From an uncultured Bacteroidales bacterium (GTDB lineage: Bacteria; Bacteroidota; Bacteroidia; Bacteroidales; F082), in contig CAMZAM010000007.1 in the NCBI GenBank assembly GCA_947304185.1, forward strand, positions 1 to 64,000: a DNA stretch of 64,000 nucleotides, given 5' to 3'. Shown here in pieces: positions 7,507-21,451 of this stretch. A program made the translations under genes and the position numbers. Each line of letters opens with the position of its first letter. The stretch's first letter is position 1. The notes beneath the pieces are model-generated. The model searched no databases and was not told the origin of the DNA. It saw only the letters and a program-made list of their open reading frames with translations.

Positions 7507-8088
7507 TTATTTCCATTCCAAAGTATTGATAAGATGTCTTACATCTTCAGTTATGAAATCAATAACAGGCTGCAACGAGTCGTTGTTAGGATATGTGCTG
7601 AAATACAGTGATCCGCGCATGAAATGCCGTGTGCTGTCGGTGACGTAGAACTGCAGTGGCGACGCAACTCCTTCACCATCAAGGAAGTACATCAATCCGT
7701 AGACATCACGTTCCTTATCGATGATGAGACTGTCGTGGATGCCTGAAGCCTTCTCAATATGCTTGACAATCATCTTATGGGCGTCTTCGACATATCTCGA
7801 GAGGTTGCCGTCGACGTGTTTATAAGAAAGATGTATGGTGCCTTTAAAGACCGGAAACACCACGTTGACCCAGTCATTTTCGTCGGGAGAGTAGTAGTCG
7901 GGAGTAATGGTGGCGTAGACGGGATATTCGAAGCTGTAACGCGTCATTGTATCGAGCGTAACATATTGTTTTTCAGGCAGATCGATACGAAAATAGCCAC
8001 GAGGCTTAGGTTGCGGGTTGTCGTCACCGCATGCCGTCACCATCATCAGGAGCAGCAATGCCACCAGGCTATTCGTCGTCTTTCTCAT
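7507..8088 (-). CDS. gldD: Gliding motility lipoprotein GldD
   Basis: GldD is a lipoprotein required for gliding and for type IX secretion function in flavobacteria; its biochemical role is not settled. Seen: a 193-residue protein with a signal peptide and lipobox ending MVTAC, followed by the GldD hallmark PKPRGYFRIDLPEK and the downstream YSFEYPVYATITPD region. Length fits the family (about 180-200). Its start overlaps the end of gldE by 20 bases, so translation is probably coupled. The gldE-gldD order is conserved in Bacteroidetes, which supports the call. In a non-gliding gut-type Bacteroidales it would most likely serve T9SS. Confidence 0.92.
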   Translation of the reverse strand: MRKTTNSLVALLLLMMVTACGDDNPQPKPRGYFRIDLPEKQYVTLDTMTRYSFEYPVYATITPDYYSPDENDWVNVVFPVFKGTIHLSYKHVDGNLSRYVEDAHKMIVKHIEKASGIHDSLIIDKERDVYGLMYFLDGEGVASPLQFYVTDSTRHFMRGSLYFSTYPNNDSLQPVIDFITEDVRHLINTLEWK

Positions 8089-9379
8089 TATAGATAACCT
8101 TTATTTCAATAATTCTGCGCTTGTCGGCTTTCTCAATCTTAAAGACAAATTCCTTATACGATGTGGAGAATCCTGCGTGCGGGATGCGGCCTTCCATCTC
8201 GAGGATGAGACCTGCCAGCGTATCGGATTCGCCTTTTATGTCTTCAAAATATAACTCATTGATGTCAAACACCTTACAGAAGTCAACCAAACTCGTTTGG
8301 GCTTGGAAGATATAGGTACGATCGTTGAGTTTCTTATAGTATTTGCTTTCTTCCACGGCGTCGAACTCATCGCTGATGTCGCCCACTATCTCTTCGAGTA
8401 TGTCTTCCATGGTAACGAGTCCCGAGGTGCCGCCGTATTCATCGACGACGATGGCGATGTGAATCTTCTTGGCACGAAAATCCTGAAACAGGTCGTTGAT
8501 TTTCTTGTTTTCAGGCACGAAGAACGCTGGTCTGAGCAGGCTCTGCCATTGGAAGTTGTGGTCTTCAAGATGCGGCAGAAGGTCTTTGACGTAAAGGATG
8601 CCTTTTATCTCATCGAGAGTGTCTTCATATACTGGTATTCGCGAAAATCCATTTTCGATGATGAGCTCAATCAGATGGCTGAACTTAGTGGTGTTTTTTA
8701 TTGCGAAGAGCTGCACGCGCGGCTGCATGATGTCACTCACCTCTTTCTCGCCGAAAGTGGCAATGCCTTGAAGCATGGAACGTTCCTCACTCGGTGTCTC
8801 TTCAGCCGTAGTGATGTCGACCGCTGTGGTCAGGTCGCTGATTGACAGTGGGTTAACATTCTTTTTTGCCAACTTTTTATCGATTATGGCTGTCGACCTC
8901 ACCAGCAGATTGCTGAGAGGTTTGAATATCATCACCAGCACGCGTATCGACGGTGCCAGGAATGTGGCGAGGCTGCGGGCTTTCTTAGCTGCCGTGATTT
9001 TGGGTATCATCTCGCCGAAGATAAGGAGCAGCGATGTCACCGCCACCACATTAATGATGAATGCCCACACAGGATTTGCTTCAAAATTGAACATCCTGTT
9101 CATGATATAAACGGAGAAAATAGTGATGGTAACGTTTACCAAGTTATTGGTTATCAATATGGTAGCCAAAAACGTCTTTGGTTTGTTACGTAGTTCGAGC
9201 ACCAGTTTGTCGGACCGGCGGTCGGAGTTCTCCATCTCGTTGATATCGTTTGGCAGGAGCGAAAAGAAGGCTGTCTCGCTTGCCGAGGCGAGAGCTGAAA
9301 AGAGAAGCAGCACACACTGGATGACGAGACAAATTATCGTCACCGTGTCGATGCCGAGAAAAAACGGAACGTCAGTCAT
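8069..9379 (-). CDS. gldE: Gliding motility-associated protein GldE (CNNM/CorC-like)
   Basis: Membrane protein of the DUF21-CBS-CorC/HlyC architecture; in flavobacteria GldE can substitute in part for GldD defects. Seen in 436 residues: an N-terminal DUF21 membrane domain with several hydrophobic segments (about 10-190), tandem CBS domains (about 205-330; IMQPRVQLFAI, GFSRIPVYEDTLDEIKGILY, VVDEYGGTSGLVTMEDILEEIVG) and a C-terminal CorC_HlyC transporter-associated domain (about 350-430). Without context it could be called a generic magnesium/cobalt efflux-type protein, but its position between ssb and gldD identifies it as GldE. It starts three bases after the TAA that would end a full-length ssb (9383-9385). 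Confidence 0.92.
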   Translation of the reverse strand: MTDVPFFLGIDTVTIICLVIQCVLLLFSALASASETAFFSLLPNDINEMENSDRRSDKLVLELRNKPKTFLATILITNNLVNVTITIFSVYIMNRMFNFEANPVWAFIINVVAVTSLLLIFGEMIPKITAAKKARSLATFLAPSIRVLVMIFKPLSNLLVRSTAIIDKKLAKKNVNPLSISDLTTAVDITTAEETPSEERSMLQGIATFGEKEVSDIMQPRVQLFAIKNTTKFSHLIELIIENGFSRIPVYEDTLDEIKGILYVKDLLPHLEDHNFQWQSLLRPAFFVPENKKINDLFQDFRAKKIHIAIVVDEYGGTSGLVTMEDILEEIVGDISDEFDAVEESKYYKKLNDRTYIFQAQTSLVDFCKVFDINELYFEDIKGESDTLAGLILEMEGRIPHAGFSTSYKEFVFKIEKADKRRIIEIKVIYNEKDDE

Positions 9380-9412
9380 GGTTTAGAATGGAAGGTCGTC
9401 GCCGTTGTAGTC

Positions 9413-9862
9413 CTATGCCGGCATTGGGGCTTCGACAGGCTGCTGGTATTGTTGTTGAGGCTGTTGCTGAGGTTGTTGTCCAGCGTAAGCGTTATACGAT
9501 GCGTTAGGATTCTGTTGCTGGCGGTTGCCGCTGAGGCTCATCATCTTGTCGACGATGATCTCTGTGATATGACGTGTAACATTTTGGTTGTCAACGTATT
9601 GGCGTGAGCGGATGCGGCCTTCGACATACATCTGGTCACCTTTTACATAATTGCGGCGTTTTTCGAAAATATCTTGTGCGAGGGTGCCCCAGCTGACGAG
9701 GTTATGCCATTCGGTTTGTTCCTGCCAGTTGCCGTCACGGTCGCGGTAACGTTCTGTGGTTGCGAGAGATACTGTCATTTTCTTTGTCCCGTTGTCGAAA
9801 GAGATGACTTCGGGATCCTTACCCAAATTTCCGATTAAGATCACTTTGTTAAGACTTGCCAT
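9413..9862 (-). CDS. ssb: Single-stranded DNA-binding protein, stop codon just before the C-terminal tip
   Basis: Essential tetrameric ssDNA-binding protein of replication and repair. Seen: 149 codons with a complete OB-fold (MASLNKVILIGNLGKDPEV, ATTERYRDRDGNWQEQTEWHNLV, YVEGRIRSRQY), then a Gln-rich linker ending PVEAPMPA and a TAG stop (9415-9413). In the same frame the next nine codons read DYNGDDLPF and are followed by TAA (9385-9383). DDLPF is the canonical SSB tip that recruits partners such as PriA and RecO. The natural full-length gene is therefore probably 9383-9862 (158 residues if TAG replaces one codon such as CAG). The missing tip is the odd point: recent nonsense change, sequencing error or readthrough. 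Two TATTTTTG boxes lie upstream (9887-9880, 9912-9905). First gene of ssb-gldE-gldD. Confidence 0.93.
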   Translation of the reverse strand: MASLNKVILIGNLGKDPEVISFDNGTKKMTVSLATTERYRDRDGNWQEQTEWHNLVSWGTLAQDIFEKRRNYVKGDQMYVEGRIRSRQYVDNQNVTRHITEIIVDKMMSLSGNRQQQNPNASYNAYAGQQPQQQPQQQYQQPVEAPMPA

Positions 9863-18973: not shown

Positions 18974-21451
18974 TATCGGGTCAACGTCGATGGAGATGTT
19001 GACCGTCTTGTATTCGTTGTTTCGCTTAAACGATTCGATTTCTTTCTTTATCAATTCCTTGATCTTCATCGAGTTATCGTTACGGTCGAACTTGATCAGA
19101 ATCTGTTTGATGTATTGGTTCTTCACCCTCGATACCACGGGATATTCCGGTCCGAGGAGGTTGTTTTTGAACACCGGACGCAGACGCTTGGCGAACGACT
19201 CGGCCGCTGTGTTCAATCTGTTATAGTCGGAATAACGTAACTTTATCATTATCAAGCGATAATACGGCGGGTAACAGTACTGCCGTCTGATAGGCATCTG
19301 CTCCTCGTAGAAACGCACGTAGTCGTGACTGACCACGTTTTGTATCACAGGGTGTGTGGGCTGATACGTCTGGATGATGACCTTCCCCTTCTCCCCTTTT
19401 CTGCCCGCTCGACCGCTGACCTGTTCCATCAGTTGGAAGCTGCGTTCATGTGCCCTAAAATCGGGGAACGAGAGCATATTGTCGGCATCGAGTATTCCCA
19501 CCGTCTTCACGCAATCGAAATCGAGGCCCTTAGTGACCATCTGAGTACCCACCAAGACATCGGTCTCGCGGTTTTTAAAGTTATCGAGGATGTTCTGGTA
19601 GCTGTTTTTCGACCTCGTGGTGTCTAGGTCAAGGCGAGCGCAGCGAGCCTCGGGGATGACGGCGGTCAGGTCTTCCTCGACACGTTCAGTGCCGAAGCCA
19701 TGCATCTTAAGGTCGGTGCTATGACACGACGGACATTCCGATGGGACAGCCATTGTGTAGCCGCAGTAGTGGCATTTCATGATGTTCTGCGCCTTATGGT
19801 ACGTCATCGACACGTCGCAGTTGATGCACTGCGGCACCCAGTGACAGACGCCGCATTCGAGCCGTAACGAGAATCCACGGCGGTTTTGGAATAATATCAC
19901 CTGATTCTTGTCGGCGAGGGTTTGTTTCATAGCGTCGACGAGCACACTGCCGAAGTTCGCCTGCATGAGCTTACGTTTGCGCTCAACACGCATGTCATCG
20001 ACTATAATCTCTGGCATCTCGACGCCTCCGAAGCGTTGTGTGAGCGAGACGAGGTGGTAACGGTGCTGCCGAGCGTTGTAGTAACTCTCGAACGATGGCG
20101 TGGCAGAGCCGAGGATGACGTCGGCACCATGGAAACGACCCAGTATCATGCTGAGGTCACGGGCATTGTAACGCGGTGCCGGATCGATTTGCTTAAATGA
20201 GCTGTCGTGCTCCTCGTCGACGATGATGAGGCCTAAGTTGGAAAACGGCAGCAAGATAGCCGAACGAGAACCTATAATAACTTGATATTTAGAGCTTTGC
20301 GTACACTCAAATTCAAGCACCTGCTCCCAAATCTCGACGCGTTCCATATCGCTGTAGCGCGAATGATAAACGCCAACCTTATCACCGAAATATTTCTTCA
20401 AACGGTTGATGATCTGTTCGGTGAGCGCTATCTCAGGCAGCAGGTACAACACCTGACGGCCTTTGTCGAGCGCCTCCTGAATCAGTTTGATATAGATTTC
20501 AGTCTTACCCGACGACGTGACGCCATGCAGAAGCACAGGCTTGCCGTCGGCGAAGCCCTGATGAATCTCATCAAAAGCAACCTGTTGTTTATCAGTGAGT
20601 TGTATGGACGATACATCTGTCAGAGCATCGAAGCTCTTAAGTCGACTGACACGTTTTTCGTAGACTTTAAACACTCCCTTGTTAACGAGGGCTTTCAGGA
20701 CGGTGCTGTTGGCATTCGATTTAGCGAGGAGCGCGGATGCGATGACGTCGTTTTCAGCGTCCCCACCAAGGACGAAGAACGACATCACCATCTCGAGTTG
20801 TTTGTAAGCCCGCTTGGTGAGTTCATCCATCAGCTCATGCATCTTCTCATCGCTATGATATTCCTCTTCAAGTGCCACATAACGCTCGTATTTCGCACGG
20901 AACTTCGGGTCAAGCTCCTCCTCCATCACCACGATCTTCTTTTCTATCATGGTTTTGATGAGTGGCATCACCTTTTTATAGCCGATGATCTTACTCACCT
21001 CGCTTATCGTCAACTTCGGCTGCACCTGAAGAGCCTCGACGATGAGATATTCGTAGTCGCTGAGAGCCATGGTGTCGAGTTCAAACTCATCGGAGAGCTT
21101 GATTTTCGACTCGCTCGACAGCTTCATGGCCGAAGGAAGAGCCGCCTGCATCACCTCGCCTTCGTAGCAGAGGTAATAGTCGCATATCCATTGCCATAGT
21201 TTCAGCTGCATCGAGTTTACGACAGGTTTCTCATCAAGGATGCCGAGGATATACTTAACCTGCTCAAAATCAGGTACTTTCTCAGTCACTTCGCTTATCA
21301 GTCCGGACATAATCTTCGTTCGGCCGAACTGCACCACCACACGCTGTCCGACATGCACGCTGTCGTTCAAATCCATCGGCACACGGTATGAGAACGTGCC
21401 TGGAACCGGCAGCGGCAAGATGACGTTAACGAAGAGAGTCTTTCTGTCCAT
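18971..21451 (-). CDS. priA: Primosomal replication protein N' (PriA helicase)
   Basis: 3'-5' superfamily 2 helicase that restarts stalled replication forks and loads the primosome; in other bacteria it contacts the SSB tip. Seen in 826 residues: an N-terminal DNA-binding region (PVPGTFSYRVP), Walker A LLHGVTSSGKTEIY, DEEH box (IIVDEEHDSSFKQ), two CxxC-rich zinc knuckles (CGVCHWVPQCINC, CHYCGY, CPSC) and motifs GTQMVTKGLDF and VSGRAGRKG. Length is standard for Bacteroidetes. A TAATTTTG -7 box (21467-21460) lies only about 9 bases before the ATG, suggesting a very short leader. Confidence 0.96.
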   Translation of the reverse strand: MDRKTLFVNVILPLPVPGTFSYRVPMDLNDSVHVGQRVVVQFGRTKIMSGLISEVTEKVPDFEQVKYILGILDEKPVVNSMQLKLWQWICDYYLCYEGEVMQAALPSAMKLSSESKIKLSDEFELDTMALSDYEYLIVEALQVQPKLTISEVSKIIGYKKVMPLIKTMIEKKIVVMEEELDPKFRAKYERYVALEEEYHSDEKMHELMDELTKRAYKQLEMVMSFFVLGGDAENDVIASALLAKSNANSTVLKALVNKGVFKVYEKRVSRLKSFDALTDVSSIQLTDKQQVAFDEIHQGFADGKPVLLHGVTSSGKTEIYIKLIQEALDKGRQVLYLLPEIALTEQIINRLKKYFGDKVGVYHSRYSDMERVEIWEQVLEFECTQSSKYQVIIGSRSAILLPFSNLGLIIVDEEHDSSFKQIDPAPRYNARDLSMILGRFHGADVILGSATPSFESYYNARQHRYHLVSLTQRFGGVEMPEIIVDDMRVERKRKLMQANFGSVLVDAMKQTLADKNQVILFQNRRGFSLRLECGVCHWVPQCINCDVSMTYHKAQNIMKCHYCGYTMAVPSECPSCHSTDLKMHGFGTERVEEDLTAVIPEARCARLDLDTTRSKNSYQNILDNFKNRETDVLVGTQMVTKGLDFDCVKTVGILDADNMLSFPDFRAHERSFQLMEQVSGRAGRKGEKGKVIIQTYQPTHPVIQNVVSHDYVRFYEEQMPIRRQYCYPPYYRLIMIKLRYSDYNRLNTAAESFAKRLRPVFKNNLLGPEYPVVSRVKNQYIKQILIKFDRNDNSMKIKELIKKEIESFKRNNEYKTVNISIDVDPI

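Follow-up and report, generated by a model that had tools for sequence, protein, structure and literature searches.

An in-frame TAG precedes intact tip codons in the main ssb gene of a Bacteroidales genome, and DUF3127 is a likely second carrier of the tip function

Results

The ssb reading frame ends before its conserved tip codons

The window analysed here is a stretch of 64,000 nucleotides from an uncultured Bacteroidales bacterium. On its reverse strand lies ssb (9413-9862), which under the standard code encodes a single-stranded DNA-binding protein (SSB) of 149 aa without a C-terminal tip. The OB-fold ssDNA-binding domain (residues 4-107; 9542-9853) matches Pfam PF00436 with 96.6 bits against a cut-off of 26, placing it in this family, and the read-through product of the gene matches TIGR00621 with 132.9 bits. 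The domain is followed by a Q/P-rich linker (residues 108-149; 9416-9541), which aligns with the linker of relatives and ends in PVEAPMPA. Directly behind it, an in-frame TAG (9413-9415) replaces the CAG codon for Q150 that is found in the nucleotide alignment with the nearest relative, G015. The next nine codons of the same frame, GAC TAC AAC GGC GAC GAC CTT CCA TTC (9412-9386), encode DYNGDDLPF and are preserved but untranslated; the original terminator of ssb, a TAA (9383-9385) shared with G015 and other relatives, comes after them. A gldE-like gene with CNNM, CBS and CorC_HlyC domains (8069-9379, reverse strand; assigned by Pfam and synteny) has its ATG at 9379, three bases past the TAA, and the ssb-gldE order is kept in relatives. 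The acidic DDLPF-type tip of a housekeeping SSB is absent from the translated product. Direct reading of the sequence confirmed the arrangement described in the original prediction, namely the stop after PVEAPMPA, DYNGDDLPF and TAA in frame behind it, and the spacing between this TAA and gldE.

Aligning ssb from sister genomes, as the original prediction had proposed, demonstrated that the SSB of G015 is 99% identical, has CAG at the stop position and encodes the same tip. Most differences between the two ssb genes are synonymous, among them the only one within the tip codons. In tip-bearing close relatives a sense codon, usually for Q, precedes DYNGDDLPF or a slight variation of it, and the main SSB ends in LPF in all 18 readable cases across the order. 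Since G015 has the same tip and these 18 proteins all end in LPF, the tip downstream of the TAG is not a chance occurrence. TAG was found at this position in none of the relatives whose ssb was aligned, and the stop thus lacks the conservation expected of readthrough. The ssb of another genome, G019 (L387 / L105, G019:C75), is frameshifted within its linker and encodes an intact DNDLPF tip in a different frame; a sequencing or assembly error is the most likely cause.

A sister clade has a tipless main SSB

The main, gldE-linked SSB is wholly tipless in six other genomes of this genus (G006, G025, G085, G099, G100 and G102; loci L011, L013, L051, L053 and L216-L220, with G100 and G102 corresponding to L051 and L053 by sequence), where it ends in NASYNxYAxxQ-stop. 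Four of the six are 96-100% complete, and the gldE start codon directly follows the tipless ssb in five. In a PriA tree the six form one clade with 100/100 support, and the window genome and G015 belong to the tip-bearing sister group; an SSB domain tree agrees. The tip thus disappeared a single time in the lineage leading to the tipless clade and, if the TAG is real, separately in the window genome. Six genomes without the tip indicate that its loss is survivable in this genus. The lethality of tip deletion, which the original prediction had cited, holds for E. coli (PMC10164576). However, it does not transfer to this lineage, since the sister clade has no SSB tip and in B. subtilis loss of the SSB tail leaves the cell viable, although efficient repair needs it (PMC12748557).

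A second ssb elsewhere in the genome had been put forward as a possible source of the tip. The genome search found one second PF00436 gene, which has no tip, and none of the 17 copies of this second ssb examined carries one; it was therefore rejected as tip donor. By PF00436 search, the tipless genomes have only two SSBs each, except G099, which has a third. This phage-like protein (L265:1495-1908, G099:C45) ends in DDLPY and adjoins a DNA methyltransferase-like gene; the SSBs of G099 itself are tipless.

Partner proteins of the tip are retained. PriA and RecO were found in all twelve genomes examined, the tipless clade included, and loss of tip partners in that clade was rejected on this ground. 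The window holds an intact priA gene for this classic SSB-tip partner (18974-21451, reverse strand; 826 aa; TIGR00595, 609 bits, and alignment). The aromatic residues of PriA that correspond to W82 and Y86 in the tip pocket of the E. coli/Klebsiella protein are kept in the window genome and in tipless G025, and thus no decay of the pocket is seen at these two positions. The DnaB proteins of all twelve genomes (L350-L361) have an SSB-tip-like end, which reads DDVPF, DDIPF, EDVPF or DNLPF in most and EDPF in the window genome (G000) and G015.

DUF3127 proteins carry an SSB-type tip

We scanned eleven genomes of the genus, including the window genome and the tipless clade, for the pattern [DE][DE]xPF-stop. 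One recurrent gene was recovered, present in 11/11 genomes and encoding a DUF3127 protein of ~125 residues that starts with ME(I/L)(V/I)GKV and ends in NGDDLPF. The copy of the window genome lies outside the window (G000:C17:40822-41199, reverse strand; L286) and ends in NGDDLPF-TAG. Its segment G000:C17:40948-41199 matches PF11325 with 92.2 bits against a cut-off of 27, which makes it a member of DUF3127, and the protein also has a hit of 67 bits to PHROG 4932, 'single strand DNA binding protein'. Within the order, DUF3127 was found in 48 of 60 genomes, and its C-terminus is [LIM]PF at all 30 order loci read, exactly DDLPF at 19 of them.

The model of a viral homologue, L362, whose sequence is 43% identical to that of the DUF3127 protein of the window genome, is an OB barrel, with a pLDDT of 77 for the whole model and about 90 for the barrel. 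The best PDB matches of the model are SSB and PriB chains (Foldseek E 7e-5; VIA-align Z about 10-11 over 80-90 residues), and the model of this homologue suggests an SSB/PriB-like OB fold for DUF3127. Given the conserved NGDDLPF or [LIM]PF end and the predicted fold, DUF3127 is likely a second carrier of the tip function. Fold, tip and PHROG annotation together suggest that it could bind ssDNA and recruit SSB partners through its tip. The proposal of a second ssb as tip source was thus a near miss: the perfect NGDDLPF sits on an SSB-like protein of another family. Tip loss and DUF3127 co-occur in one clade plus one genome, and tip-bearing species also have DUF3127. The family has been named beside SSB in a phage paper (PMC8004638), and its cellular members appear to be uncharacterised. 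In the literature searched, we found no description of SSB tips in Bacteroidetes, nor of the order-wide SSB-type tip on DUF3127 and its possible backup role.

Nature of the TAG codon

The TAG is most simply read as a C-to-T nonsense change, which is either real or introduced in the consensus. Of the options in the original prediction this one stands: a change from CAG to TAG, in the strain or in the assembly, is well supported by CAG in sister genomes and by the failure to find a UAG suppressor.

A consensus or assembly error, with a true base that gives CAG and an SSB of full length, has a substantial but clearly minor chance of being correct. It would account for the TAG allele being a singleton, seen in one genome only, and for a tip, linker and gldE spacing like those of tip-bearing relatives, and the linker frameshift in G019 looks like a similar error. 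The tip codons are pristine, unlike what a long-standing loss would predict; 27 bases are too few to tell when the mutation arose. However, comparison of the window with the G015 contig syntenic to it, at about 87% nucleotide identity, argues against such an error. Among 36 gene pairs (16,244 codons), ssb alone has an internal stop, and the remaining pairs showed no other internal stop, internal TAG or frameshift; many stop flags in this comparison were antisense or overlapping spurious ORFs. The contig is thus not error-ridden, and poor contig quality was rejected as an explanation. The genome is 98.8% complete in 36 contigs. Moreover, the genus demonstrably tolerates loss of the tip, so that no error is needed to explain the TAG.

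Programmed or suppressor-mediated readthrough would give tipless and tipped SSB forms from one gene, and the perfect preservation of the tip codons had suggested it. We consider it very improbable, since the preserved 27 bases are explained by a recent change, no relative has the TAG, and none of the 43 tRNA genes of the window genome has a CUA anticodon. In addition, prfA, encoding RF1, is intact (491 bits), and TAG is a common terminator, closing about 10 of the 35 window genes at the expected homologous length; rng is among them. Reassignment of TAG, genome-wide or partial, or a suppressor tRNA was rejected on the same release factor, tRNA and terminator evidence, and reassignment, against which the original prediction had already cited rng and other genes ending in TAG, has a negligible probability. 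By all sequence evidence, TAG is a true stop here.

Discussion

Together, our results make it fairly probable that a CAG-to-TAG nonsense change removed the tip of the main SSB and that the loss is tolerated through redundant tip function. In this model, a single C-to-T change would have converted CAG (Q150) to TAG in the main ssb. Translation would stop at the TAG. The resulting SSB of 149 residues would retain its ssDNA-binding domain and most of its linker but not the acidic partner-binding tip, and the downstream tip codons would be a recent untranslated remnant. DUF3127, a separate SSB-like OB protein with the same NGDDLPF end, could occupy ssDNA and bring partners to it; the tip-like end of the replicative helicase DnaB may provide further redundancy. 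Since tip-dependent recruitment appears redundant in the lineage, the loss is probably tolerated. With a sister clade that is tipless for good and a tip on DUF3127 in every same-genus genome scanned, the event looks like a simple tolerated mutation. Two parts of this model are inferred: the population would really carry the mutation, and DUF3127 may be a functional substitute for the SSB tip.

It is tempting to speculate, and we do so tentatively, that in Bacteroidales a 'tip hub' is split over two OB proteins, with SSB coating ssDNA and the tip of DUF3127 recruiting partners such as PriA and RecO. Such redundancy may have allowed one clade to shed the SSB tip and the window genome to live with a nonsense mutation in the gene. 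Provided that the allele is real, we would expect it to impair repair and not to kill the cell, and the defect should be less severe if DUF3127 and SSB have partners in common.

Taken alone, the stop codon is of little consequence, and its value is as a pointer to the redundancy question. The SSB tip is often regarded as indispensable. A natural clade without it on any housekeeping PF00436 protein, and the order-wide tip on DUF3127, raise the testable question of whether SSB partner recruitment is redundant in Bacteroidales, with DUF3127 as the missing half.

Compared with bacterial SSB (PF00436 / TIGR00621), the window gene shares the OB domain, the linker, the conserved position next to gldE and the tip codons, which are still there, whereas its ORF stops ten residues short and lacks the tip. 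A parallel is B. subtilis SSB without its C-terminal tail, where a tipless housekeeping SSB likewise supports growth (PMC12748557). That protein is a laboratory construct, whereas here one genome has what is probably a naturally tipless allele, and in the sister clade of six genomes tiplessness is fixed. The other tip-bearing OB-fold protein of the window genome is itself a member of a known family, DUF3127 (PF11325) / PHROG 4932. B. subtilis SsbB is a naturally tipless SSB paralogue, an accessory copy beside a tipped SSB. The proteins described here share a tipless SSB OB domain with paralogues of the SsbB type; however, those are accessory to a tipped SSB, whereas in the tipless clade neither housekeeping PF00436 protein is tipped.
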